From: Minisyncoccota bacterium
Lineage (GTDB): Bacteria > Patescibacteriota > Minisyncoccia > JAHIHE01 > JAGLIN01
NCBI GenBank assembly: GCA_023142995.1
Contig: JAGLIM010000009.1
Location: 1 to 35,214 of the forward strand
Length of the DNA: 35,214 bases
Direction of reading: 5' to 3'
Below the pieces are notes generated by a model that saw only the letters and a program-made list of their open reading frames with translations, made no database searches and had not been told where the DNA came from. Below, piece by piece: positions 3-35,214 of this stretch; positions within the stretch are counted from its first letter, which is position 1; every line of letters begins with the position of its first letter. The translations under genes were made by a program, and so were the position numbers.

Positions 3-854
3 GAGATTACTATTACTAATAATCAAAATGAACCAATTTATATTTCTCCATATAATTTTTCTTCATTATTGAACTACTCAATAAGTAAATTTGAAAATGA
101 TAGTTGGAAGCTCACAAGTCAAGACCGTGTATTACGATCTTCATGTTATAATAATACTTTAATGCGTATTTCTATTATTCCCCCCGCTTATATTTCTGAG
201 TTCAAAAGTCCGCAGGTGGATAAATGGGAGCAAACAGAATGTTTTTTTAAGGAACAAATGTGTGGTGATGAATTATATTCTGCGGTTGTCAAAGAACAGG
301 TTGAAACTGGAAAATATAAGATTCGTTTTTGCTATTGGAATGAAGAGGATGTGGATTTAGTAGTGGATTATATAGCGCAAGATGACAAAAAGAAATGTAT
401 TGAAAGCGAATTCACAATCAAAGAAAAATCAGTTCTTGATTCAAGGTGTAGTGAGAAGGTAAAAGGAATCGGAATATGTGATAGATATAACAAAGGATAT
501 GCGTATGAATTTGATTCAGAGATAGGAAAGTGTGTTGAAGAAGACAGAGTGACAGGTTGTTCATTTGAGATACCTTTTAGAACTTTAAAAGAATGTCAGA
601 AGGTTTGTGAGAAAAGAGAATGTGCAGAGAAAGGTGAATTTATAAATTATCCACAGGGAACTAATGAAAATTTGCAGGATGTTTGCTGTGAGAGACTGAA
701 AGGATTATTGGGCTATAGAATGGAAAATGGAAAATGTGAAATACTTTTAGGTGGGCCATTTTTAACTTGTATGCCTTGCGGAAATGGGATTTGTGAAACA
801 ATGGATAATTTTAATGAAAACGAATGTAATTGTCCTGAAGATTGCGAGAATTAA
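3..854 (+). CDS. Exported Ig-like / Kunitz-like cysteine-rich protein (5' end cut off)
   Basis: The reading frame is already open at the left edge of the window, so the start and any membrane anchor lie outside it. A TTG at 69 is in frame but lies inside a domain. The residues before it (ITITNNQNEPIY) match the Ig-like, BsuPI-like domain of the proteins at 3529, 7401 and 14240. Numbering from 69, that domain runs to about residue 122. It is followed by six cysteines (127, 137, 155, 164, 176, 180) with Kunitz/BPTI spacing, including the Y-x-F-D and P-F-x5-C positions. A cysteine-rich tail follows and ends in CGNGICET...NCPEDC, a motif often seen in CPR secreted proteins. It is probably an extracellular binding or inhibitory protein; the function is unknown. 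Domain calls are by eye. Confidence 0.85.
   Translation, partial: EITITNNQNEPIYISPYNFSSLLNYSISKFENDSWKLTSQDRVLRSSCYNNTLMRISIIPPAYISEFKSPQVDKWEQTECFFKEQMCGDELYSAVVKEQVETGKYKIRFCYWNEEDVDLVVDYIAQDDKKKCIESEFTIKEKSVLDSRCSEKVKGIGICDRYNKGYAYEFDSEIGKCVEEDRVTGCSFEIPFRTLKECQKVCEKRECAEKGEFINYPQGTNENLQDVCCERLKGLLGYRMENGKCEILLGGPFLTCMPCGNGICETMDNFNENECNCPEDCEN
447..608 (+). other. Kunitz/BPTI-like domain, copy 1
   Basis: Six cysteines have gaps of 9, 17, 8, 11 and 3 residues, against 8, 15, 7, 12 and 3 in BPTI. A glycine precedes the fourth cysteine, an aromatic-x-Phe-Asp stretch lies before the third, and a Phe sits six residues before the fifth, as in BPTI. The residue after the second cysteine (P1) is Asp, so classical trypsin inhibition is unlikely. 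Confidence 0.65.
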
Positions 855-931
855 AAAATATCTTCAAATGAATGACTTCGCAGCAAGCTGGCGAGGTATC
901 AAGAGGAAAAAATTTCTTTTGACAACTCCAA

Positions 932-947
932 CCGATGCAAGCATCGG
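932..947 (+). terminator. Small hairpin between genes
   Basis: A perfect 6 bp stem (ccgatg/catcgg) with a CAAG loop is followed by the T-rich stretch agaattttatt. It lies between the stop at 854 and the start at 996. The tail is short, so it is a weak terminator candidate. A second, bulged hairpin (tcgcagcaagctggcga) lies just upstream, near 883-899. Confidence 0.4.
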
Positions 948-995
948 AGAATTTTATTGATTAAAATAATAAATTTTATTTTTAAAAACAAAAAC

Positions 996-3464
996 ATGAA
1001 AACAAAAGATTTAATTGGCGCTGTTTTATTTGCGTTTGTGGTAGTAGCAGGAGCAACGATTTTAGCTGATTATTTCAGGAAAGCCCCGCTCCGAATTTTT
1101 GAGACCAAACAAGAACAAGGCATTCTAAAAACAGAACCAATCAATTTATCAAATATTAAAACAGAAAAATTAGCTTTTGCGAAATATTATTTTTTAGATC
1201 CATTAGATATAGAATTACAAACAGCGCAATATAGTTTACCTTTAAAAACTTCTCAGATTTCAAATTATCAAGATTTTTCTGAAAAGATTCCTTTAGGTGA
1301 TAAGGCATTAAGTTCATTAAATAAAAACGGATTTGCTGTTATTGATAATCTATTTAATCCAAGCGAAGAGGATATTACAAATCCATATAAAACTTTAAAA
1401 GATAAAGAAATTCCTGTTTTTATTACTTCTGATTCGCTTTTGCATTTGTATCATATTCAATTTGACGAGACTTTGAGGCAGATTGAGGAGAGGGAGTTTT
1501 ATGATGGGATTTGGGAGATTAGTAAGGAGTTATTAGATGAGTCAGTAAAATCATCTAGGGAAATACATACAGAACTGTTACACGCAACGTATAAAGACAC
1601 AACAAAAGAGAAATATGAGCAAATAGAAGAACTTCTAGAAGCATATAAAAGAAATATTATTTATTTATCTGTTGGATTGGAATTGTTGAAACCAGAAAAT
1701 AATCAAATAAAAAAAGAATGCCATGAGAAAAATCATTGGGAATGTGAAATGCAGGATCCAACAGCATATTTCACACGAGAAGAATTAAATAAATACGCTT
1801 TTGAAACTCCTGATTTTGTGAAAGAAGAAGTCCAAAAAGAATTAGCGTTAATAGAAAAACACGAGGGATTTTCAAATTCTCCACTTTTTATTTATAAAGA
1901 GGATTATTCGCAGTATGTTCCACGGGGACATTATACTAGATCAGAAAAACTGAAAAATTATTTCAAAACGATGATGTGGTATGGCAGGACTTCAATGCTT
2001 TTGAAAGGTAGTTCAGACATTCCTAAAGGGCAGACAGATTCTTTTGATAAAAAGGGGATGATTTCTGTTTATGACGCAAGAATACAAACCATGCAAGCAA
2101 GTCTGCTTGCTGCTAAGTTCTCTGGTCTTGAAAAATTAAAAAATAAATGGGACAGAATTTATGGAGTTACTGTTTTCTATGTTGGGCTTTCTGACGATCT
2201 TGGACCTTATGAATATTTGGAAGCGATAAATTTTGTATTTGGAGATGAATTTATTTTAAACGATTTAACGGAAGAAAATCTTGGAAAACTAAAAGCGAAA
2301 TTAGCGGAATATAGAGGACCAGAAATATACGGCGGAACAGGAGAATTGGGAATGTTGCCACCATTTACACCAGAAAAAGCAGGCACTCTTTTGGAGAATA
2401 CAAAAGGATTTCGTTTAATGGGGCAAAGATTTATTCCCGATTCTTATTTATTTTCTAATTTAGTTTCTCCTTATGTTGGAATGTATGACGGGGATGATTG
2501 CAGTAAAACATTTACTTGTGAATTTTCAGATGGCGGACCAATCAGAGCACTCCCAAGAGGACTTGATGTGATGTCTTTATTAGGATCAAAAAGAGCGGGA
2601 GAGATTTTGATTGAATCAGGAGATACAAACTATAAAGGTAAAGATAAAGAAGGAAATATAATAACTTATGAAACTCAGTTTAATAAACTTAAAGAAGAGT
2701 TTGATAATTTCACAGAAGCAGACTGGCAGAAAAATATTTACTGGTCTTGGCTTGACGCATTAAAACAGTTATTAAAAGAATTTGATGATGGTTATCCGAC
2801 ATTTATGCAGACAGAAGCGTGGGAGGAAAAAGAACTGACTTCCGCGCTTGCTTCTTGGTCTGAGTTGCGACATGACACGATTTTATACGCTAAACAGAGT
2901 TATACGATGACAATCGAAGGTATAGCTCCTCCAGAGAAACTAGTCGTCGGCTACATTGAACCAGTTCCTGAATTCTACAATAAACTTTTAGCTCTCACAA
3001 GAATGACAAATAAAGGTTTAACTGAAATGGAAGTTTTGGATGATTCGGCTAAATATAGATTAGAAAATTTAAAGAAAGTATTAGAAAGATTGGTTGAATT
3101 GTCTAAAAAAGAATTAGAAAATAAAGAGCTTACGGAAGATGATTATGCTTTTATCAAAAACTTTGGTAAGGAATTAAATAATGTAATTAATAATGTTGAT
3201 GACAAAGCGAAGAAAACAACAATTATTGCTGATGTTCATACGGATCAAAACACAAAACAAGTTTTGGAAGAAGGGGTTGGTTATGTCAAAATGATCGTTG
3301 TCGCTTACAAAATTCCAGACGGAAGAATTTTAATCGGTGCTGGACCAGTGATGAGTTATTATGAATTCAAGCATCCGATGAAAGACAGATTGACTGATGA
3401 GAAGTGGCGGGAATTGTTGGAATCAGATCCGCCAGATGAGCCGGAGTGGGCGAGTGAAAAATAG
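996..3464 (+). CDS. DUF3160-family anchored protein
   Basis: This is a large exported protein of 822 aa. An N-terminal hydrophobic segment (about residues 6-25, GAVLFAFVVVAGATILADYF) anchors or exports it. The body resembles the DUF3160 family, with the stretch IPVFITSDSLLHLYHIQFDE and an all-helical, tyrosine- and aspartate-rich character. No enzymatic function is established for DUF3160 and no catalytic motif is evident here. The frame can be extended to a TTG at 957, but the ATG at 996 puts a typical short basic segment before the anchor. The same 'aaaacaaaa-c-ATGaaaa' context precedes the next gene at 3529. No SD is present. It lies among anchored cysteine-rich proteins but is itself cysteine-poor. 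Confidence 0.8.
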   Translation: MKTKDLIGAVLFAFVVVAGATILADYFRKAPLRIFETKQEQGILKTEPINLSNIKTEKLAFAKYYFLDPLDIELQTAQYSLPLKTSQISNYQDFSEKIPLGDKALSSLNKNGFAVIDNLFNPSEEDITNPYKTLKDKEIPVFITSDSLLHLYHIQFDETLRQIEEREFYDGIWEISKELLDESVKSSREIHTELLHATYKDTTKEKYEQIEELLEAYKRNIIYLSVGLELLKPENNQIKKECHEKNHWECEMQDPTAYFTREELNKYAFETPDFVKEEVQKELALIEKHEGFSNSPLFIYKEDYSQYVPRGHYTRSEKLKNYFKTMMWYGRTSMLLKGSSDIPKGQTDSFDKKGMISVYDARIQTMQASLLAAKFSGLEKLKNKWDRIYGVTVFYVGLSDDLGPYEYLEAINFVFGDEFILNDLTEENLGKLKAKLAEYRGPEIYGGTGELGMLPPFTPEKAGTLLENTKGFRLMGQRFIPDSYLFSNLVSPYVGMYDGDDCSKTFTCEFSDGGPIRALPRGLDVMSLLGSKRAGEILIESGDTNYKGKDKEGNIITYETQFNKLKEEFDNFTEADWQKNIYWSWLDALKQLLKEFDDGYPTFMQTEAWEEKELTSALASWSELRHDTILYAKQSYTMTIEGIAPPEKLVVGYIEPVPEFYNKLLALTRMTNKGLTEMEVLDDSAKYRLENLKKVLERLVELSKKELENKELTEDDYAFIKNFGKELNNVINNVDDKAKKTTIIADVHTDQNTKQVLEEGVGYVKMIVVAYKIPDGRILIGAGPVMSYYEFKHPMKDRLTDEKWRELLESDPPDEPEWASEK

Positions 3465-3528
3465 AAAATAGAATAAATATTTATTAATGACAATTCATAA
3501 ATTGAAATTAATTTCTAAAAACAAAACT

Positions 3529-5070
3529 ATGAAAAAGCAAACATTATTTGACTTAACTTCAATGCCAAAAATGATCTTGATTATTACTTTAGTTGTGATG
3601 TTGGGGACTTTATTTGGAGCAACAAGTTATTTGTTAAAAATATCTAAAACAGATTTGCCGATTGTAAATCCTGTTATTGAAACTCAATGTGAAGTTGATT
3701 CTGATTGTGAACTTATTTATACTGGTCATAGTACATGTTCACCTTGTGATACTTCAGTAGCGGATTATAAATGTTTTAATAAAGATGAAACTAAAAAGAT
3801 AAGAGATAAATGGGATAATAAAGTTAGTCATGTTGTGTGTAAGCCTTGTCAGGAGCCTCAGCATACTTGCAAATGCTCAAATGGGAAATGCGAGAAGGTT
3901 AAAATAAAGGAAGTTAAAGAAGTGGTTATTGCGACGGATAAAATGGAGTATGAAATAGGCGAAGAAGTGAAAATAACGATAGAAAATAATTCAAATGAGC
4001 AAAAAATGAGCTACCCATCTTATGTTATTGAAATGTTTGAAAATAATATTTGGACACATATAAAACAAATACGGCGTCCTTGCGTGATGGTTTATGAAGA
4101 AATAGGGTTTATAACCATTAAATCTGGAGATAAATTAGAATACGAATGGAATCAAGAAGAAACTGAATGTAGCGAGCCAGTGGATCAGTTTTCTTCTAAA
4201 ATGATCTCTAATCAAGTTTCTGCTGGGAAATATAGAGTAAGTAGTAGAATATTTGGCAGTAGATTATTAGATGGTAATATTATTTATTCCAACGAATTCA
4301 TAATAAAAGAAAAATCGGTGGTTGATGCGAGGTGTGTGGAGAAATCTCAATTGCTCAGCGACTGTCAGACATTTTCTAGAAAAATTGGATATGAGTTTGA
4401 TTCTAATATAGGGAAATGTATTGAAAGATTTGTCGAAGGCAACGGATGCGATATAATATGTCCTTTTGAAAGTTTGGAAGAATGTCAGGAGGTTTGTGAG
4501 GAAAGCAAAATTGATTCCCAAGATATTCTATCTGATGAAAAAGTTTATGAAATTTTGAAAAATTTTGCTATTAAACAAAATGTAGCAAATATAAGCGATG
4601 ATAATATTTTATTAGATGCCATTGAATTTCAGAATGGAGATATAAAAGAACGATTAAAAAAAGTAGAGTATGATTTAGATGAAACAGGAAAGGGTCTCGC
4701 TGATTCCATAGACTGGAGAGGTTATGTTAATGCAACAACAAAAGTTTGCATAGCAAGAAGTATTATTTATAATAATCTTAAACATACTTGTGATCTTAAA
4801 CATGATTCTATTCTGTCCTTAGAGGATGTTGATGATCTTTTAGCCACCGAAGAAATTATTCCATATTTTCTTGTTGGCTTCACTTATTTCAAAAGTGGAG
4901 ATTATACTAAAACAAGTTATTATTTGGATCAAATAATATTGCATCGCCAAGCGGAAATAGATCGTTGGGGAGAATCGTATTTTATTAATGCAAGTGGAGA
5001 GATTTATAAAAAGATTTATGAAAAGACAACGCAGGTGTTGAATGAAATTGAAATTGCAGTTAACGGCTAA
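3529..5070 (+). CDS. Anchored Cys-module / Ig-like / Kunitz-like protein
   Basis: A membrane-anchored extracellular protein of 513 aa from the ATG at 3529; an in-frame ATG at 3487 would add 14 residues before the anchor. Numbering from 3487, the order is: hydrophobic anchor about 29-50; cysteine module 68-135 starting CEVDSDC and ending CKCSNGKC; Ig-like BsuPI-type domain about 145-274 (EYEIGEEVKITIEN); Kunitz-like domain 283-337; then a helical C-terminal domain of about 185 residues with possible TPR-like helices (YFKSGDYTKTSYYLDQII). The Ig and Kunitz parts closely parallel the truncated gene at the left edge, including the linker EFIIKEKSVVDARC against EFTIKEKSVLDSRC, so the two are paralogues. 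Function is unknown; protease inhibition or ligand binding at the surface is possible. Confidence 0.85.
   Translation: MKKQTLFDLTSMPKMILIITLVVMLGTLFGATSYLLKISKTDLPIVNPVIETQCEVDSDCELIYTGHSTCSPCDTSVADYKCFNKDETKKIRDKWDNKVSHVVCKPCQEPQHTCKCSNGKCEKVKIKEVKEVVIATDKMEYEIGEEVKITIENNSNEQKMSYPSYVIEMFENNIWTHIKQIRRPCVMVYEEIGFITIKSGDKLEYEWNQEETECSEPVDQFSSKMISNQVSAGKYRVSSRIFGSRLLDGNIIYSNEFIIKEKSVVDARCVEKSQLLSDCQTFSRKIGYEFDSNIGKCIERFVEGNGCDIICPFESLEECQEVCEESKIDSQDILSDEKVYEILKNFAIKQNVANISDDNILLDAIEFQNGDIKERLKKVEYDLDETGKGLADSIDWRGYVNATTKVCIARSIIYNNLKHTCDLKHDSILSLEDVDDLLATEEIIPYFLVGFTYFKSGDYTKTSYYLDQIILHRQAEIDRWGESYFINASGEIYKKIYEKTTQVLNEIEIAVNG
4333..4497 (+). other. Kunitz/BPTI-like domain, copy 2
   Basis: The cysteines are at residues 283, 293, 311, 321, 333 and 337 (numbered from 3487), with gaps 9, 17, 9, 11 and 3, plus one extra cysteine at 325. 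IGYEFDSNIGKC matches the Kunitz core strand before the third cysteine, and PFESLEEC matches the Phe-x5-Cys position. P1 is Gln, not basic. Confidence 0.65.
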
Positions 5071-5606: not shown

Positions 5607-7367
5607 ATGCAAAATAAAATGAAAGATCTAAATCAAAATTTAGAGCAAATCAAAAATCAAAAACAATCTTCTAAGAAAGAACCTTTTTCTTTAATAATAG
5701 TCAAAACATTCCTAGCGATTTTACTATTCACAGGAATGGGAGTGATTGTTATTGGCGGGGTATATATTATCGGCGGGCATTATAAGATATCACATAATCA
5801 GCCAACAGGAAATATTTCATTTGAGGTTAAAGGATTAGATCATTGTGAGAAAGATGATGATTGTATAGCTTATTTTTCCAATTGCTATTGTCAATATCGT
5901 TGTATTAATAAAGATGCAAGAATGAAAGATTGTTCCAAAAAATGTCCTGCAAGAGGAGCAGCTTCTGAATGTGTTTGCGAGAATAATAAATGTGTTGATA
6001 AAACTTTTGATACTTCCGACTGGCAGACTTATCGGAATGATGAGCTTGGGCTTGAGGTAAAGTATCCAGAATATTATTTTGAGGATAGATATGATTTAGA
6101 AAATATGACAGATTTGGACTACAAAAGGATACATTTTTTTAGAGATATGAATAATAGTGAATTAGATGATTTTAAAGAGCATTATATTACTTCTTTTTAT
6201 GAAGAAGGTACTCATTCAGGCACGATAAATATTAAGTCATACAATGAAAATGAATTAAAAGCTTGGTATGCGATTGATTCGTTTAATGATCTTAAACTTA
6301 AAGAATACAGTAATTTTAAAGTATATATATTAGAAATTAGAGAGGTTGGATTTTATTATATAATTCCACATAATAATGTAGATAATTTATATTTTGTATT
6401 CTCTATTCCCACGTTTTTACAGAATAATTTTGAAAATAATTGGTTTAGCACTTTCAAATTCACAAACCAAAACACAAACATTGCAGATATTATCAAAGAA
6501 GACGAAAAGATAGAATATCTTAAAGATTTTGAATTTCAAAATCTACCAGATTATGTTTTTTCCGAACAAAAAGGCGCGACTTATAAATTAGAAAATTATA
6601 TCTTTCAATTTATAAGTCAACCGAATTTAAATATTCCTTTATCAATTTCAAGCAGTGATATTAAATACAAAGGCGTGCTGTATAGTAAAGATAATGGATC
6701 AAGCTGGAATGATCTTTTTGTTATTGATAATCCGAAAGACTATAAAGGCAATGAAGTAAAATACAATCCAGTGGGTATGTTCGTAAAAGATAATAAATTA
6801 TATCTTGATATTAGCGATGACAGAGGGGCTGGTAGTGGAGAGGGGAATTTGCTTAGATATTCCACTGAAGATGGGAAAATATGGACAAGAGACAGTTGCC
6901 TTTATTTAATGCCTGAACTTTATTTTAATGGGAGTGACGGAATAGAGCCATTTGTTATAACAGGAAATAGCGACTGTATCTATTCTCCTGTATCGCTTTG
7001 TACTGATGAATCTTTTGGAACGGCTATTGGTAGTGATGTTTATCCGATAAATCCAAAATATAAAAACCTTCATTTTTTAGGTCAGCTGTTTACGGCAGCT
7101 GATTGTGGTCCAGAAAGATTAAGTCAAATTTGGGGAGTTGACGGAGAAAATTATACTCTTGGTCCAAGAATTATTTTAAAAAATAATCCAAGCAAAGAGC
7201 TTATTGATGTTTTTAAGTCAATTGGTTTTGATTGTTGCGACAAAGTTTCTGATAGTAAGTGTAAGCAGTGGTCTCATGACAATTATTCAATTAAAATAAG
7301 TGAGTTGCTAAAATTAGAGCCATATCATAATGATTTTAGTAGTGATGATTGCGCAAATTGTGGATAG
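5607..7367 (+). CDS. Anchored protein with Cys module and PsbP-like domain
   Basis: A 586 aa protein. An N-terminal cytoplasmic stretch is followed by an anchor, about residues 27-56, very like that of the next gene (KEPF-L---KT-LAIL-FT...GG-YII). The cysteine module spans 80-129, opening CEKDDDC and ending CVCENNKC. From about 138 there is a region opening SDWQTYRNDELGLEVKYPEYY, the entry to a PsbP/MOG1-like domain common in CPR anchored proteins. The rest (about 300-586) contains one BNR-like stretch (YSKDNGSSWNDLF), which suggests a beta-propeller fragment. Start: MQNK is shared with the paralogue at 7401, which supports the ATG at 5607 over the ATG at 5619. No SD. Function unknown; it is likely extracellular. 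Confidence 0.8.
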   Translation: MQNKMKDLNQNLEQIKNQKQSSKKEPFSLIIVKTFLAILLFTGMGVIVIGGVYIIGGHYKISHNQPTGNISFEVKGLDHCEKDDDCIAYFSNCYCQYRCINKDARMKDCSKKCPARGAASECVCENNKCVDKTFDTSDWQTYRNDELGLEVKYPEYYFEDRYDLENMTDLDYKRIHFFRDMNNSELDDFKEHYITSFYEEGTHSGTINIKSYNENELKAWYAIDSFNDLKLKEYSNFKVYILEIREVGFYYIIPHNNVDNLYFVFSIPTFLQNNFENNWFSTFKFTNQNTNIADIIKEDEKIEYLKDFEFQNLPDYVFSEQKGATYKLENYIFQFISQPNLNIPLSISSSDIKYKGVLYSKDNGSSWNDLFVIDNPKDYKGNEVKYNPVGMFVKDNKLYLDISDDRGAGSGEGNLLRYSTEDGKIWTRDSCLYLMPELYFNGSDGIEPFVITGNSDCIYSPVSLCTDESFGTAIGSDVYPINPKYKNLHFLGQLFTAADCGPERLSQIWGVDGENYTLGPRIILKNNPSKELIDVFKSIGFDCCDKVSDSKCKQWSHDNYSIKISELLKLEPYHNDFSSDDCANCG

Positions 7368-7400: not shown

Positions 7401-8999
7401 ATGCAAAATAAAACACAAAATCCAAATCAAAGCAAAAACCAATTTTTTAAAAAAGAGCCGTTCTTTTTAATGACTATAAAAACGCTTTTAGCAATTTTAA
7501 TTTTTACAGCATTACTGACGATAATTATTGGCGGGGGATATATAATTTGGGAGTATTCTAAAACATCATCTAATAATCAGCCAGTTTTATTTGAAAAACA
7601 AGTTGTTTTAATAATCGACAAAACAGAATACCAAATAGGCGAGAAAGTAAAATTGACAGTTAAGAATAATTTAGATGATGAAATAGAATTTTATACCGTT
7701 GCTGTTGAAAAATTTAATAATAAAGAATGGCAACAAATTAGATTTGATATTGAGTGTCTTGGGTTGTGTACAAAAATACAAACCGTGATAAATTCTAAAA
7801 ATAACAAAAGTTTTTTATGGGATCAAAAAGATAATATTGGATTACAAATAATGGGAGGAAAATTTAGATTTATAATTGGGCTATGGGATAATGATTGGAA
7901 TGGTAGTGGATTGCCTTTAATGTTTAATTATTATTCCAATGAATTTAAAATAAAAGATTCTGTTATTGGTCCGTCACCAGGCAATATGGTTTGTGGCCAA
8001 GATTCTGATTGTGAAATAAACTATGCGAATTATTGTTGTGGGAAATGGGAGGGATGTTTTAATAAATATGATAATCCAGGAACTATAGGAGATTTAAATG
8101 ATCCTAATTGTAAATGTATTAAAAAGGAGCCAATTAAAGAATGCAGGTGTGTTAATAATATATGCCAGCCAGTATATGAAAGTAGTAAAGAGACAAAAAA
8201 CAGTGATAAGATTATCAAAAATTTAATCCAACAAATGGGAGACGACAATATCTCTCAAGAAACAAAAAACGCAATTCCAGGAAAACTCTACGATTACGGC
8301 AAAGAAGCAATCTCTTATTTAATTGAAGCATTGGATGATGAACGAGTTTTTGATAATTGCTATATGGGGTTAAGTGGTATTAAAAGATCGCCAAACGATA
8401 AATGTAATCAGTGTTTAGTTAAGCAAAAATGTAAAAATATTCTATACACCATAGTTAATCCAAAACCAATTTTGTATAAACATTTGCAATATATGAATTA
8501 TAATGTAGATTGGCAACAATGGTGGGATAAAAATCAAGACAAATCCTTAAACGAAATCAGAAAAATGGTTCGGGATTGGTACAGGGCAGAGGAAGAAAAA
8601 AATAATTATTCAACAATGGGTTATCGCGGGGAAGAATATGATTATTTGGATTTTACAGGGGATTTAAGTCATGATGATTTTCTTTTGAAATTTAAAGAAG
8701 TTTGCACAGGTTTTGATAATCTTAAACAAGTTGACTATTTAAAATGGCCAATTAGCTGTGGATGTTTGAGCGTTGATAGACATAGCTGCTATCGACATTT
8801 TGCCGAGTATAATAAAGATGCTTCTGTTTGTGATAAAATAACATGGGATGTTTTTGGGAGAGATAGCTGCTATTGGGCAGTAGCAGTTGAATTAAACAAG
8901 GTTGGTATGAATGATAAAATTGATTTTTGCAGCAAGATAGAAGATGCGCATATTGAAAATCATGCAAGGCAAAAAGCGTGTTTTGAATTAGCTAAATAA
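7401..8999 (+). CDS. Anchored Ig-like / Cys-module protein with Cys-rich C-terminus
   Basis: A 532 aa paralogue of its upstream neighbour at the N-terminus: MQNK start and anchor about residues 20-50. An Ig-like BsuPI-type domain follows at about 66-186 (EYQIGEKVKLTVKN ... YYSNEFKIKD), then a cysteine module at 198-255 opening CGQDSDC and closing CRCVNNIC. Residues about 265-400 are helical and resemble a HEAT-like segment (YGKEAISYLIEALDDERVF). The C-terminal hundred residues carry regularly spaced cysteines (CGCLSVDRHSCYRHFAEY, RDSCYWAVA, DFCSKIEDA, KACFELA), a pattern seen in CPR exported proteins. It differs from the 3529 protein in domain order (Ig before Cys module) and lacks the Kunitz-like domain. 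Confidence 0.8.
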   Translation: MQNKTQNPNQSKNQFFKKEPFFLMTIKTLLAILIFTALLTIIIGGGYIIWEYSKTSSNNQPVLFEKQVVLIIDKTEYQIGEKVKLTVKNNLDDEIEFYTVAVEKFNNKEWQQIRFDIECLGLCTKIQTVINSKNNKSFLWDQKDNIGLQIMGGKFRFIIGLWDNDWNGSGLPLMFNYYSNEFKIKDSVIGPSPGNMVCGQDSDCEINYANYCCGKWEGCFNKYDNPGTIGDLNDPNCKCIKKEPIKECRCVNNICQPVYESSKETKNSDKIIKNLIQQMGDDNISQETKNAIPGKLYDYGKEAISYLIEALDDERVFDNCYMGLSGIKRSPNDKCNQCLVKQKCKNILYTIVNPKPILYKHLQYMNYNVDWQQWWDKNQDKSLNEIRKMVRDWYRAEEEKNNYSTMGYRGEEYDYLDFTGDLSHDDFLLKFKEVCTGFDNLKQVDYLKWPISCGCLSVDRHSCYRHFAEYNKDASVCDKITWDVFGRDSCYWAVAVELNKVGMNDKIDFCSKIEDAHIENHARQKACFELAK

Positions 9000-26061: not shown

Positions 26062-27804
26062 ATGACTAAACTTTCAAGCTATGACAAAGAGAAGAAATCT
26101 TTTGGAAATCGTAGAAAAGATACAGTTTCCCCGTTTCCAGATTTAAATCGTGAAGCATTTTCTTATGTAATTGATATTATTGTTAAAAAAGCAAACAAAG
26201 AAAAGATAGAAATTCAAGAAGATAACCCAGAACTACAAAAACTAATTCAAAGCGAAAACTTTGGAAAACTCTATGCTTATGCCATAGAAAAGGTTACTCC
26301 AGCAGAAGAAAATGAATTACTGACAATCGAAGGGGAATGGATGAAATACGATAAAGATTCTGACCATATGCCATTAGTAGAATCATTACAGGGTCATGGA
26401 ACAGGTTGGTGTACAGTAGGAGAATCAACAGCAGAAGCACAACTTAAAGAAGGAGATTTCTATGTCTATTACTCAAATGATAAAGACAATAACCCAACAA
26501 TCCCAAGAGTGGCAATTCGTATGGAAGGAGATCAAATCGGAGAAGTTCGTGGAATAGCCCCAGACCAAAATCTTGATAATGAAATTCAAGATGTATTAGA
26601 TGAAAAGCTATCTGAATTTACAGATAAAGAAAAATATGAAAAGAAAACAGCTGATATGAAATTTCTTACTGAAATAGAAAAAAAGATCAGTAAAAACGAA
26701 GAATTAAAAATAGATGATCTCAAATTCCTTTATGAAATTGACTCTAAAATTGAAGGATTTGGTCATGAGGACGATCCGAGGATTGGGGAGATTACAGAAG
26801 AAAGGGATATTAAAAAAGATCTTTCTGTGATCTTTCAATGTCAGGCAGATCAAGTCGCGCTTTCAACAGACAAATTAAATGAAACTACAATTGTTCTTAA
26901 AGATAATATGAATTCTTATGAGAGTGAATACGCAAATTTTCCAGATAGTTTGACTTATATTGTTGGAAGCTTAAGTTTTGAAGGTAGTGATTTAGAAGAG
27001 TTAAATTTTAATTTATCATCAATTAGTGGGGATTTAAGTTTTCGGAATAGTCAAATCAAAAAATTGCCTTCAAATTTAACTTCAATCGGTGGAGAACTAG
27101 ATATTTCTGATAGCCAGATAAAAGAACTTTCTTCAAAATTAGCTAGAATTGGTGGAAGTGTTTTTTTACGAGGGAGTCAGATAGAAGAACTTCCTGATAG
27201 TCTAATTTCAATCGGTGAATATATAAATCTTGAAAATAGCAAACTAAAAAAGTTTCCTCCAAATCTGATTTTAAATAATACAAAGTTTGATCTTACAAAC
27301 AGCCAGATCAAAGAACTTCCTGACAATCTAACTTCAATCGGTGGAAATTTACATCTTTATAAAAGTCAAATCAAAGAACTTCCTAAAAATTTAACATCAA
27401 TTAATGGAAGTTTACATCTTTATGATAGTCAAATAGAAAAGCTTCCCGACAATTTAGTTTCAATTAGTGGAAATTTGTATATTGGAGATAGTGAATTAAA
27501 AGAATTGCCTTCAGGCTTAACTTCAATTGGTGGAAATTTAGATCTTACAAATAATAAATTAGAAGAATTTCCCAATAGTTTAATCTCAGTCGGTGGTAGT
27601 GTGCTTCTTGGATATAGTCATCTTAAAGAATTTCCTAAAAATCTAACTTCAATCGGCGGATCTTTGGATATCAAAAATAGCAAACTGAAAGAATTTCCTA
27701 AAAACCTAACTTTAATCGGCGGAAGCCTATATCTTGACGAGGATCAGGTTAAAAATTTGCCATCAAATATAAAAGATATAGTCAAAGGAGAAATTTCAAG
27801 TTAA
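26062..27804 (+). CDS. PcfJ-like/LRR protein (3' part of the broken gene)
   Basis: 580 aa from the first ATG after the TAA at 25882, in the same frame as the 25594 piece. Residues 1-50 (YDKEKKSFGNRRKDTVSPFPDLNR) continue the upstream domain. Residues about 92-180 resemble the PcfJ-like core, with GTGWCTVGESTA (W116, C117), GDFYVYYS and IGEVRGIAPDQNLD. From about 295 to 575 there are about 13 leucine-rich repeats of 21 residues (consensus LTSIGGNLxLxxSQIKELPxN), fairly uniform at the DNA level (63 bp), so they expanded recently or are homogenised. No signal peptide. The function of such proteins in CPR is unknown; LRRs suggest protein binding. Whether this part is translated alone is uncertain. 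Confidence 0.75.
   Translation: MTKLSSYDKEKKSFGNRRKDTVSPFPDLNREAFSYVIDIIVKKANKEKIEIQEDNPELQKLIQSENFGKLYAYAIEKVTPAEENELLTIEGEWMKYDKDSDHMPLVESLQGHGTGWCTVGESTAEAQLKEGDFYVYYSNDKDNNPTIPRVAIRMEGDQIGEVRGIAPDQNLDNEIQDVLDEKLSEFTDKEKYEKKTADMKFLTEIEKKISKNEELKIDDLKFLYEIDSKIEGFGHEDDPRIGEITEERDIKKDLSVIFQCQADQVALSTDKLNETTIVLKDNMNSYESEYANFPDSLTYIVGSLSFEGSDLEELNFNLSSISGDLSFRNSQIKKLPSNLTSIGGELDISDSQIKELSSKLARIGGSVFLRGSQIEELPDSLISIGEYINLENSKLKKFPPNLILNNTKFDLTNSQIKELPDNLTSIGGNLHLYKSQIKELPKNLTSINGSLHLYDSQIEKLPDNLVSISGNLYIGDSELKELPSGLTSIGGNLDLTNNKLEEFPNSLISVGGSVLLGYSHLKEFPKNLTSIGGSLDIKNSKLKEFPKNLTLIGGSLYLDEDQVKNLPSNIKDIVKGEISS
26952..27770 (+). repeat. 63 bp tandem LRR-coding repeats
   Basis: About 13 in-frame units of 63 bp encode 21-residue leucine-rich repeats. 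Recurrent blocks are 'aacttcaatcggtgga' and 'agtcaaatcaaagaactt'. The units differ mostly by point changes, and the repeats fill the 3' half of the gene. Confidence 0.85.
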
Positions 27805-30535: not shown

Positions 30536-30650
30536 CGGAGTCCTTGCACTGAAATAAATTCAGCATAAATTTCACAATGGAGAAGCTTCATAAGATTAAT
30601 GAAGTTCGTAAGAGTTATGATATTTCACCCTTGCTTTCGCAAGGACTCCA
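30536..30650 (-). repeat. ~115 bp intergenic repeat, copy 2 (inverted)
   Basis: Read on the - strand it begins ggagtccttgcgaaagcaagg and ends cagtgcaaggactccg, aligning along its length with the copy at 10490-10605. Its first stem is ccttgc/gcaagg (30629-30644 on the + strand) with the same GAAA loop. It lies in the 204 bp gap between the acyl-CoA synthetase stop and the giant exported protein start. Confidence 0.75.
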
Positions 30651-30679
30651 TAAAAGGATTTTATTTTAATTTAATCTCT

Positions 30680-33600
30680 ATGTCCCAAAAAACCAAAGCA
30701 AAGATTAAAAAAACATCTCTCATTTCAATAGCGTTTTCTTTAAGCGTTGCGATGGTTATTGCTGTAGCCTCTTTTTTAAACATTTCTTTTTTTCCTCCAA
30801 AGATAGATATTCCCCAAACCCAAGCTTCAGGAGAAATACCAATCTACCGTTCCGTAGGTAATACATCAGATAATCTTAATACTAACAACAGAACTGTTAC
30901 TATTTCAGGAACAACTGCTACTTTTTCAGACACAATGCCAGATAACATTGGAGTAGGAGATGTCTTGCAATATCAAGTATCAAGCACATACCACATTGCC
31001 TTTATTTCGGGGAGAACAAGCTCTACTATTTATACTATCCAATCAAGAGACGGAACAACACCTCCAACAACTTGCATAACAGGAACAACTGTTAATATCT
31101 ACAGAGCCCATCTTCATCTTGATGATTGGGAAGATCAAGTAATAGAAGATGTTAATCCCAGTATTCACGATAATGTAGATCAAGATGTTTTAATGCCAAA
31201 CACAGATCTTACCGCTAACAACTCAATCGCAATGGTTCCTTGCTATGCCGCAATAAGTGTTGATAACCTAGCAGTTACTATTGAAGGTTGGACTACTGAT
31301 GTTGATAGTTATATTAAGGTTTATACTCCTGTGGCGAGTAGTGAGGTTGGGGTTAGTCAGAGGCATGATGGAACCGCAGGAACAGGATATAGGCTTATCA
31401 GAACCTCAGGTACTTGGGCTAGAGTATTATATATTCAAGAAGATTATGTCAGAATAGAAGGTTTGTCTATCTCTTCAGATACAAGTTACAACAAAATACT
31501 TGAATATGACGGAGTAGGCGAGTTGAGGATATCCCATAGTTTGCTTCATAATAATTCTACATATAATATATTGATTATTAATAGCGGTTCAGTAATTAAA
31601 ATATGGAATAATATTATATATAATGCAGGAAGTCGTGAAGGTATAAAATGTCATCTTTCTGCTGTTGATGCTAAAGCGTATATTTATAACAACACTATTG
31701 TTGACTGTGGTCAGGCTGGTATGTATGGTGCTATTAAAGTTTTCTATGCAGACTATCTTTATTTAAAAAATAATATAGTTCAGGATGAAAGTAGTAGTTT
31801 GTGTTATTATATTTCAGATATTGGAACATTTATCCATTCAAACAATATTTCTGAAGATGACAGATCTCCTGATAATGATTATGATAATAAAGTCGTTACT
31901 TTTGTAGACGAAGCTAACGATAATTTTCATCTTTCAGTTAATGATACTTCCGCCAAAGATTCTGGAGCTGATTTATCCGCAGACGCAAATTTATCTTTTT
32001 CTGATGATATTGATGGAACTCCAAGACCTCAAAATACAGTTTGGGATATTGGAGCGGATGAGCATATCATTGTAAATGATATTACCATTTCTGATCTTTC
32101 TGCTTCAGCTATAACCACTACTGGTTTTAATACTTCAATTAATTTCACAGATGATGATAATTCCAACGCAGTTGTTACTCTTTATTATTGCGATAACACG
32201 GCTTTGTCTGGTTGCAATCCTGAAGCAGGAATTTCAGCTGTAATGTCCAGAGGTTCAACTACTTATACAACTACAGTATCAGGATTGCCAGAAAACACTC
32301 CTGGACATGAATACAACTTAAGAGTAATTGCCACAGACGCAGATGGAACAACAGGTTCTCCTTTAAACACTACTGTTGCTTTAGAGACTCCAGACATTAC
32401 TGCTCCTGCTATGATCTCTGATTTAAACTTTTCTTATTCAACTTCAGATAGTATTAAACTAACATGGACAGCTCCAGGAGATGATGGAAATTCAGGCACA
32501 GCTACTTTGTATGATGTTAGATATTCTGCTACTGCTATTGCCAATGATACTGATTTTAATAATGCTACCGAAGCAACAGGAGAACCAAGTCCAAGTGTTG
32601 CTGGTTTAAGCGAGAATTTAATAATTACAGGATTAATTCCTGAAACTCCTTATTATTTTGCTATTAAAACGAGTGATGAAATTCCTAATGTAAGCGAGTT
32701 GAGTAATGTATTAAATAATGCTACTCCTAACGCTACTACTGTTAATGTTGGGAATTGCGAATATGTGGATGTTAATACAGCGGTTGGCGTGGCGAGTTCT
32801 GGAGATACAGTTGTTGTGTCTGCTGGAAACTGCACTTGGACTTCTCATATTTCTATCCCTGACGACAAAAAAATTATATTGCAAGGAGCAGGAATGGATT
32901 CAACTGTAATTACAAGAAATGGAACGGCAATCAGGATGAATCAGTCAGGTTCTCGTGTTACGGGTTTTGGTTTTATATTATCAAGCGGGGACAGTATAAT
33001 TGGTGTTAAAGGTAAAAGTTGGCGTATAGATCATTGCCGATTTAACAATACTGCTGAAGTTTTTAAGGTTGCAATTACTGCAGATGGATATAATGTTTCA
33101 CAATATCCAACTGGATTAATAGATAATTGTATTTTTATTAATAGCAGAGTGTTAGTTAATGGGGGTGGTACCTTTGAGCAAATGTCTGGTATTTGGGATG
33201 ATCCTCTTGATCTTGGAACAGATGACGCGGTGTATGTTGAAGATTGTATTTTCCCACACTCTGTATTTTCAAATGCTATGGATGGAAATAGAGGTGCAAA
33301 AAGTGTTATTCGATTTAATAGTATTACGAATACTTATTTAGAATTTCATTCGTTACAAGGTGATGATACAAGAGCGTATAGAAAATGGGAAATCTATGGG
33401 AATACTATCCACTCAGATACATCAAGCGTATATCTTCCAATACGCATAATAGCTGGCACTGGTGTAGTTTTTAACAATGCAATATCAGGAGATTGGAACG
33501 GAAGAGTTATAAATTTTTACAACAGGCGTTGTTATGATTCAATCGGTGTTGCTGGTTTCTGTGATGGCAGTTCAACTTGGGATGGAAATCAAGAGGCGAA

Positions 33601-35214
33601 TGGATGGCCGTGCCGTGATCAGATAGGACGCTCTACTGATGCTTATCTATTTGACAAAGATAATTTACCATACCCTTCCCAAGAATCTGTACCAGCATAT
33701 TTATGGTTAAATAGAGACCTAGGATTTGATGGAAATAGTTCAGATATAGCTGGTGTTTTAGTCAATAATAGTTCTGGAGATCATATCCAAGCAAACAGAG
33801 ACTACTACAACGAAACTCTAACCTTCAACGGCACCACCGGTGTCGGCACTGGCCTCTACGCAAATATGCCAACAACCTGCACCACCAATGTAGCCTACTG
33901 GGCAACAGACAGAGGAGACTGGAATTCAGAAAATGTAGGAGCAGACGGGCAATTATACAAATGTACTTCAACAAATAATTGGGAATTGTATTACACTCCC
34001 TATACCTACCCCCATCCTCTCCGAACAGGAATAACTCCTCCAGATACCACCGCTCCTTTCCGTTCTGCAGGTTCTCCATCAGGCGCTCTTGCCTCAAGCA
34101 CAACCCAAACAAACATCTCACTAACAACCAACGAATCAGCCACTTGTAAATATTCCACAACCCCAAACACAGCCTACGCTTCAATGACCAACACCTTTAC
34201 AACCACAGGAGCAACAACCCATTCTCAAACAATCACAGGATTAACAGATGGAAACACATATAACTATTACATCAGATGTACAGATACATTAAATAATATT
34301 AATACAAATGATTATCTAATAACATTCTCAGTAGATATGCCGGCAGATATAACTCCACCGATAATATCAAATATTGAAATATTGAATATTACTTCTAACT
34401 CAGTTCAGATTAATTTCAACACAGATGAAAACACAACTTCATATATTGAATACGGTTTAACAACTTCTTATGGATCTCAAACAGAAACAAACACGATAGG
34501 AATTATGAATTATGAATTAGAAATCACGGGACTCTCTGACAACACCACCTACAATTTTAAAATCACTTCCACAGACGAAGCAAGCAACACCACCCAATCC
34601 ACAAATCAAACATTCACCACAACCCAATCATCAACCCCCGACATAACCCCACCATCAAACATCACAAACCTCACATCATCAAACATCACCCAAACCTCAG
34701 TAAGTCTCAACTGGACATCCCCAGGAGATGATAACAACACAGGAACAGCATCAACATATGATCTCAGATATTCAACATCAAATATTACAAACGATACAGA
34801 CTTCAATAGTGCTACCCCATTAGAAGGAGAACCAATCCCCCAAACAGCAGGAACAAACCAATCACTATACATAGCAGTAGGATTATCTCCAAACACAACA
34901 TATTACTTCTCAATTAAAACATCAGATGAAGTTCCCAATATTTCTAATCTATCCAACATAGAAACAATAACAACTCTATCAGAATCAACTCCTCCAAGTG
35001 GAGGAGGAACATACTCAGACACAACTCCTCCATCTATTCCAGATGATTTCACAGCTACCCCTGCAGACTCACAAATCACTCTTACTTGGAATAACCCTAC
35101 AAACTCAGACTTTGTCAGAGTTAAACTATTAAGAAAAGAAAACAATCTTCCCACCTCACACAACGATGAAACAGCAACAATCATCTACGAAGGAACAAAC
35201 GAAGAATACACAGA
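30680..35214 (+). CDS. Giant exported beta-helix / fibronectin III protein (3' end cut off)
   Basis: The frame is open from the ATG at 30680 to the right edge, 1511 codons with no stop, so the protein is longer. An N-terminal hydrophobic segment (about residues 13-34, LISIAFSLSVAMVIAVASFL) exports it. In order: a right-handed beta-helix region (about 230-440) closing with NTVWDIGADEH, a choice-of-anchor-Q-like end; an FN3-like stretch; a canonical FN3 domain (PAMISDLNFSYS ... WTAPGDD ... YYFAIKTSDE); a second pectate-lyase-like beta-helix (VNVGNCEYVDVNTAV, KIILQGAGMDST) ending near residue 1040; then several FN3 domains (PPIISNIEI ... SYIEYGLTTSYGS; PPSNITNLTSS ... WTSPGDD). Probably a surface adhesin or glycan-binding protein. 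From about 33780 the + strand turns C-rich and very G-poor. Confidence 0.9.
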   Translation, partial: MSQKTKAKIKKTSLISIAFSLSVAMVIAVASFLNISFFPPKIDIPQTQASGEIPIYRSVGNTSDNLNTNNRTVTISGTTATFSDTMPDNIGVGDVLQYQVSSTYHIAFISGRTSSTIYTIQSRDGTTPPTTCITGTTVNIYRAHLHLDDWEDQVIEDVNPSIHDNVDQDVLMPNTDLTANNSIAMVPCYAAISVDNLAVTIEGWTTDVDSYIKVYTPVASSEVGVSQRHDGTAGTGYRLIRTSGTWARVLYIQEDYVRIEGLSISSDTSYNKILEYDGVGELRISHSLLHNNSTYNILIINSGSVIKIWNNIIYNAGSREGIKCHLSAVDAKAYIYNNTIVDCGQAGMYGAIKVFYADYLYLKNNIVQDESSSLCYYISDIGTFIHSNNISEDDRSPDNDYDNKVVTFVDEANDNFHLSVNDTSAKDSGADLSADANLSFSDDIDGTPRPQNTVWDIGADEHIIVNDITISDLSASAITTTGFNTSINFTDDDNSNAVVTLYYCDNTALSGCNPEAGISAVMSRGSTTYTTTVSGLPENTPGHEYNLRVIATDADGTTGSPLNTTVALETPDITAPAMISDLNFSYSTSDSIKLTWTAPGDDGNSGTATLYDVRYSATAIANDTDFNNATEATGEPSPSVAGLSENLIITGLIPETPYYFAIKTSDEIPNVSELSNVLNNATPNATTVNVGNCEYVDVNTAVGVASSGDTVVVSAGNCTWTSHISIPDDKKIILQGAGMDSTVITRNGTAIRMNQSGSRVTGFGFILSSGDSIIGVKGKSWRIDHCRFNNTAEVFKVAITADGYNVSQYPTGLIDNCIFINSRVLVNGGGTFEQMSGIWDDPLDLGTDDAVYVEDCIFPHSVFSNAMDGNRGAKSVIRFNSITNTYLEFHSLQGDDTRAYRKWEIYGNTIHSDTSSVYLPIRIIAGTGVVFNNAISGDWNGRVINFYNRRCYDSIGVAGFCDGSSTWDGNQEANGWPCRDQIGRSTDAYLFDKDNLPYPSQESVPAYLWLNRDLGFDGNSSDIAGVLVNNSSGDHIQANRDYYNETLTFNGTTGVGTGLYANMPTTCTTNVAYWATDRGDWNSENVGADGQLYKCTSTNNWELYYTPYTYPHPLRTGITPPDTTAPFRSAGSPSGALASSTTQTNISLTTNESATCKYSTTPNTAYASMTNTFTTTGATTHSQTITGLTDGNTYNYYIRCTDTLNNINTNDYLITFSVDMPADITPPIISNIEILNITSNSVQINFNTDENTTSYIEYGLTTSYGSQTETNTIGIMNYELEITGLSDNTTYNFKITSTDEASNTTQSTNQTFTTTQSSTPDITPPSNITNLTSSNITQTSVSLNWTSPGDDNNTGTASTYDLRYSTSNITNDTDFNSATPLEGEPIPQTAGTNQSLYIAVGLSPNTTYYFSIKTSDEVPNISNLSNIETITTLSESTPPSGGGTYSDTTPPSIPDDFTATPADSQITLTWNNPTNSDFVRVKLLRKENNLPTSHNDETATIIYEGTNEEYT

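Follow-up and report, generated by a model that had tools for sequence, protein, structure and literature searches.

Divergent Kunitz (BPTI-type) domains in a family of putative surface proteins of Patescibacteria

Kunitz domains are best known from textbooks as protease inhibitors of animals. The locus described here, from a Minisyncoccota bacterium, encodes two proteins with a six-cysteine block of similar spacing, and it raises the questions of whether these blocks are genuine Kunitz domains and what such domains might do in a bacterium. The window, by which we mean the whole analyzed stretch of 35,214 nucleotides, starts at base 1 of contig JAGLIM010000009.1 in a genome of 1.48 Mb in 95 contigs (assembly GCA_023142995.1), and all features described below lie on its forward strand.

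Two paralogous genes with six-cysteine blocks

The first gene (3–854) is an open reading frame that is still open at the contig start, and its 5′ end is missing. It encodes an Ig-like part, a linker KEKSVLDSR (420–446) that joins this part to the Kunitz domain and is nearly invariant in relatives, Kunitz copy 1 from C1 to C6 (447–608; spacing 9-17-8-11-3), and a C-terminal Cys-rich tail (609–851; CMPCGNGICE...CNCPEDC), which is one of many alternative tails and is common to relatives L008, L027, and L033. The second gene (open reading frame 3487–5070) encodes, as read from its sequence, a hydrophobic N-terminal membrane anchor (3565–3639; MPKMILIITLVVMLGTLFGATSYLL) and a Cys-rich segment also common to relatives (3688–3897; CEVDSDCELIY...CKCSNGKCEK), followed by an Ig-like domain (3916–4311; Pfam Big_14 over residues 144–224, E 1.9e-5), the linker KEKSVVDAR, conserved in relatives (4306–4332), Kunitz copy 2 (4333–4497; spacing 9-17-9-11-3), and a tail (4498–5067) with no relation to that of the first gene.

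A sequence-only reading of the window had placed both blocks at these positions, with these spacings, and had described a Y-x-F-D strand, a Gly before Cys4, and a Phe six residues before Cys5; we found the blocks there, within long open reading frames, and each of these features in both copies. The proteins are indeed paralogous, with 33% identity over 205 amino acids (E 9e-22) across their Ig and Kunitz parts, and both window copies have the linker FxIKEKSVxDxRC in common. A loose version of the spacing pattern had exactly two matches in the window, compared with 0.003 expected from residue shuffling; for the strict pattern, the number expected was 0. The same reading had both blocks follow an Ig-like domain through an almost identical linker. 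The linker part of this claim stands, while Pfam names an Ig domain in gene 2 only, and there at 25 bits, just under the 27-bit cut-off of Big_14 (PF20251). That cut-off is exceeded by relative L024 and by the open reading frame at 7401–8999, and the Ig-like part of gene 1 is defined by its BLAST alignment with gene 2.

The product of the neighboring frame 7401–8999 is a paralogue (30% identity, E 3e-12) with a membrane anchor and the same Ig-like domain (Big_14, E 9e-7), after which it lacks a Kunitz domain. The gene at 5607–7367 encodes a Cys-rich protein with an anchor; farther downstream, this protein resembles in sequence the tail of the first gene of the Kunitz-bearing relative L033. A DUF3160 protein (E 1e-206) is encoded at 957–3464, between the two Kunitz genes. 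Farther along, the product of 26062–27804 has about 10 leucine-rich-repeat-like units (LTSIGGNLxLxxSQIKELPxN), and a large protein of at least 1538 amino acids, cut by the window end (30599–35212), appears, from what look like parallel-helix and fibronectin-type repeats, to be a surface protein.

Kunitz identity of the divergent domains

According to the sequence-only reading, the Kunitz assignment would fail if PF00014 or the predicted fold did not match, and one half of this is literally what we found: PF00014 matched neither the full-length window proteins nor anything in their own genome. We attribute this miss to the divergence of the window sequences, because relatives pass the cut-off. 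As isolated domains, copies 1 and 2 scored 11.2 and 9.6 bits, below the curated cut-off of 21 bits, which is an annotation threshold and not a structural criterion. The relatives L033b (25.7 bits) and L028 (22.9 bits), likewise scored as isolated domains, exceed it, and these relatives share 53%–56% identity with copy 1. Of 16 family domains compared individually, 13 have a match to PF00014 (best E 1.3e-5). PHROGs and NCBIfam yielded nothing useful.

Comparisons with sequences of known structure point in the same direction. A phmmer search of the PDB with copy 1 found 14 sequences, all of them Kunitz domains (best E 0.0055). We then used a family profile of 13 members, comprising the window copies and order-level relatives without any textbook Kunitz domain; L014 and L015, both of which pass PF00014, were left out on purpose. 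This profile found 86 PDB sequences at E up to 1 (best E 8e-7), and the best 60 of these 86 matches are all Kunitz domains. We considered that the blocks might be convergent six-cysteine domains that merely resemble Kunitz domains, since short Cys-rich domains converge easily and the window copies score under the PF00014 cut-off. However, with two control profiles in which the cysteines were fixed and the other columns shuffled, the Kunitz matches vanished: one control found a single ribosomal protein in the PDB and the other found nothing. We reject convergence through the cysteine pattern alone on the strength of the shuffled controls.

Nor are the window copies isolated from ordinary Kunitz domains. 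The spacing 9-15-7-11-3 occurs in relatives L003, L004, and L015. The sequence of L015 (21.3 bits) is close to that of the window family and also to that of ordinary Kunitz domains, and L014 is an ordinary Kunitz domain (54–56 bits) with the canonical loop GPCKAY. As judged from sequence, these two form a ladder that connects textbook Kunitz domains stepwise to the window copies. This ladder, the relatives above the PF00014 cut-off, and the structure comparison described next all argue against convergence, which we regard as very improbable.

AlphaFold predicted, at pLDDT 77 for copy 1 and at pLDDT 83 for copy 2 modeled together with its Ig domain, a helix, a long hairpin, a short strand, and a C-terminal helix in each case, and the fold predicted for the window copies is that of Kunitz domains. 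Among the matches listed for the copy 1 model against the PDB, the best 50 are all Kunitz structures, with probabilities of 0.89–1.00 and TM scores of about 0.5–0.7; the Foldseek E-values of this short chain are modest (best 0.014, none <0.001). The search with the Ig plus Kunitz model of copy 2 returned mostly Ig folds and is of little help for the Kunitz part.

The pattern of cysteine loss bears on the disulphide order. Cys2 and Cys4 are disulphide partners in BPTI. Both are absent in L008 and L011, which come from the same genome (G010) and may represent one or two loss events, and none of the other aligned domains lacks just one of the two; in L056, C1 alone is lost. Joint loss of Cys2 and Cys4 would be consistent with the BPTI order of disulphides, as would the superposition on Kunitz structures, and the window copies, which retain all six cysteines, presumably form such bonds. 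We found no VKOR in their own genome, and this search brought no oxidase for the disulphides to light.

Since Kunitz domains are mostly found in animals, we also weighed eukaryotic contamination of the assembly. The contig also holds the DUF3160 gene and genes that, by our reading of their sequences, we take to be pgk-, eno-, and gpmI-like. Relatives occur in other genomes of the window's order, and in a second genome a homologous carbonic-anhydrase-like gene lies near a Kunitz gene. Contamination is effectively refuted by the recurrence of the family in several bacterial genomes, and we give it a negligible probability. Profiles, shuffled controls, and structure comparison agree, and we conclude with high confidence that both window blocks are, as the first reading had proposed, genuine although divergent Kunitz (BPTI-type) domains.

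A domain-shuffling family and its distribution

Relatives of the window proteins follow a common layout. A hydrophobic anchor at the N terminus is followed by a Cys-rich segment and a Big_14-like Ig domain; next come a nearly invariant linker (FTIKEKSALDxRC) and the Kunitz domain, and the protein ends in a C-terminal tail. N-terminal to the linker, 120 of 153 pairs show similarity, whereas among the tails only 13 of 171 pairs do. The window family is a domain-shuffling family of putative surface proteins, in which the Kunitz proteins would be exposed on the outside of the cell.

We found relatives in eight of 18 genomes of the window's order, with up to four copies per genome and, on one contig, three consecutive copies. 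In a second order, that of genome G063, 16 of 20 genomes have one copy, and in a phylum-wide sample a relative is present in 4 of 380 genomes. Thus, the earlier statement that Kunitz domains are uncommon in bacteria is correct in general and does not apply to these two orders of Patescibacteria. We found no relatives among viral contigs. The records that hold relatives are labeled Parcubacteria, Paceibacterota, or Moraniibacteriota; two others (L026 and L035) are labeled Aenigmatarchaeota and Euryarchaeota, which likely reflects misbinning or recent transfer, because their linker and domain are very close to those of Parcubacteria copies.

Other architectures carry the domain as well. In the G063 order, it in most cases forms the C-terminal domain of a small lipoprotein (L015/L039, L041, and L043–L056), in which a lipobox is followed by an IGFBP-like cysteine block, a Kazal-like block (matched by Kazal_2 only at E 0.05–0.09), and then the Kunitz domain; one bacterial lipoprotein here seems to combine two inhibitor modules of animal type. 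Another Kunitz lipoprotein, L071, comes from the same class as G063 and is open only if TGA is read as glycine (code 25). Because L071 reads through with this code, the result suggests that the class is Gracilibacteria. Kunitz-like segments without Cys6 occur in other families of the class (L064, L065, and L066), and two of these segments belong to very large proteins, with open frames of 1703 and 1449 amino acids. The gene with the trypsin-inhibitor loop, L014 (1330–1737 of its own record), encodes an anchored protein of 136 residues in a Patescibacterium and sits between genes that, from reading the sequence, we take to be ftsZ- and ileS-like. Finally, in L009 and L035, the Kunitz domain is directly followed by PrcB_C (PF14343; E 9e-15 and 6e-12). 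PrcB is part of a surface-protease complex of treponemes.

Variation on the contact face, possible function, and known systems

To describe variation in the family, we defined a protease-contact set (BPTI numbering 11–13, 15–19, 34–37, and 39); both this set and that of the exposed positions are assumed from BPTI complexes. With the qualification that the sequences are not independent, mean entropy was 2.21 bits at contact positions, compared with 1.07 bits at the rest (P = 0.0002) and with 1.23 bits at other exposed positions (P = 0.0014). In the lipoproteins of the G063 order, the contact face shows no such focus (P = 0.5). Between paralogues, contact codons have a pN roughly three times as high as other codons do, while the orthologous pair L029/L033b has kept its loop (contact pN 0.07 at pS 0.45). 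Because the loops are kept in this pair and divergent between paralogues, they look paralogue-specific and maintained, as far as codon comparisons can tell.

By a counting method, dN/dS was 0.62 at contact codons compared with 0.32 elsewhere, with distances near saturation. With such a ratio and such distances, we do not claim positive selection, and part of the loop variability may reflect relaxed constraint. The main rival to a binding function builds on this: the Kunitz domain might be a structural spacer, a small, disulphide-locked, protease-resistant knob between the Ig stalk and the swappable tail, in which the loop is unused and its constraint relaxed. A contact-codon ratio that does not exceed 1 would fit with this idea, as would the constant linker and Kunitz domain standing before many unrelated tails, and the loss of the loop-supporting Cys pair in L008 and L011. 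However, a spacer does not explain why the loops are kept between orthologues, why contact positions vary more than other exposed positions, or why the lipoprotein family of another order lacks the same focus, and we consider it unlikely.

The identity of the P1 residue bears on what kind of binding might be involved. As had been read from the sequence, P1 is Asp in copy 1 and Gln in copy 2; P1/P1′ are Asp-Arg and Gln-Thr, not the Lys/Arg plus small residue of a canonical trypsin-type inhibitor, and the loop of the window copies is two residues longer. Because of these P1 residues, trypsin inhibition by the window copies seems unlikely. In relatives, P1 is Lys, Glu, Pro, His, Ser, Ala, or Leu, and this variety, together with the Asp and Gln of the window, argues against a common role as trypsin inhibitors. 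The earlier suggestion of binding rather than trypsin inhibition appears reasonable, and the variable contact face would strengthen it.

We favor, with modest confidence, the explanation that these are membrane-anchored surface proteins in which the Kunitz domain acts as a binding and inhibitor head with a paralogue-specific loop and a protease as its likely partner. The N-terminal segment would anchor the protein in the membrane, the Cys-rich segment and Ig-like stalk would raise the Kunitz domain above it, and a swappable C-terminal module would follow. Outside the cell, the canonical and secondary loops of the head would contact a partner; the most plausible one is a protease that belongs to a host cell, a competitor, or the cell itself. 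The loop that differs between paralogues would determine specificity. Several observations do not sit easily with this explanation: textbook inhibitors do not have an acidic residue or Gln at P1, a non-canonical P1′, or loops of this length; two copies (L008 and L011) lack the loop-supporting disulphide; and the dN/dS ratio at contact codons, the missing VKOR, and the modest Foldseek E-values count against it as well.

A narrower form of the binding and inhibitor-head explanation is that the proteins are true protease inhibitors of unusual specificity and standard mechanism, which shield the surface from proteases of a host, a predator, or the cell itself. Acidic-P1 forms, for example, would act on Glu/Asp-specific peptidases, and His, Lys, or Phe forms on others. 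By analogy, a Kunitz fold with a diversified contact face would resemble inhibitor families, and the pairing with PrcB_C in L009 and L035, the adjacent Kazal-like block in the other order, and the canonical loop of L014 are in line with inhibition. The window's own genome also encodes two S8 and three Trypsin_2 proteases, possible serine proteases of the cell itself; neither these genes nor the PrcB_C fusions prove a target. A P1 of Pro, Gln, or Asp and long loops are, however, unusual for standard-mechanism inhibitors, and this narrower form is possible without being probable. A rather doubtful alternative is that Patescibacteria display diversified Kunitz domains on their surface for recognition: anchor, Ig stalk, and Kunitz scaffold would be constant, the binding loops specific to each paralogue, and the C-terminal modules interchangeable, and the targets would be proteases or surface proteins on the cells that these bacteria inhabit.

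The domains described here have in common with the Kunitz/BPTI family (PF00014; MEROPS I2) the order of the six cysteines, the Y-x-F/Y strand, residues equivalent to Gly37 and Phe45, and the predicted fold, and they show significant profile similarity to domains of TFPI, ShPI-1, boophilin, and APP. They differ in having one more residue before Cys2, one fewer between Cys4 and Cys5, and, in many copies, 1–3 extra residues in the Cys2–Cys3 loop, as well as Pro-Phe in place of Asn-Phe, non-canonical P1/P1′, an anchored Ig stalk, and swapped tails. Conkunitzin-S1, a two-disulphide Kunitz peptide of animal venom, is among the best fold matches of the copy 1 model. It lacks the Cys2–Cys4 bridge, as L008 and L011 lack these cysteines, unlike the window copies. 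For the Ig plus Kunitz model, the Ig-like inhibitor IPI/BsuPI of Bacillus subtilis (PF12690, 3isy; PMC3901451) ranked 18th; this is a general Ig-fold resemblance without a sequence match, and it is no evidence that the stalk inhibits.

Bacterial Kunitz domains have already been published, although they are rare. F6W77_19310 of Acinetobacter baumannii is described as a secreted tandem protein with five Kunitz domains, three of them with Arg at P1, that inhibits FXIa and FXa; in the part of the description available to us, no Ig stalk or membrane anchor is mentioned (PMC11511053). Among open-licence papers, a scope that makes absence weak evidence, we found no report of Kunitz domains in Patescibacteria, and a search for Kunitz domains in the Candidate Phyla Radiation led only to a paper on pacifastin (PMC13388995). 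The family and its architecture thus appear to be undescribed so far. We find a divergent Kunitz family in at least three lineages and architectures of Patescibacteria, with variation centered on the protease-gripping face. It offers a testable entry to how these mostly uncultured, probably episymbiotic bacteria handle the proteases or surfaces of other cells, and is relevant to the question of whether the Kunitz fold arose in animals or is older and shared. The pacifastin-like domains reported in myxobacteria and CPR genomes (PMC13388995) provide a parallel, in that they too are small, disulphide-rich inhibitors of animal type in CPR genomes, from a different inhibitor family.
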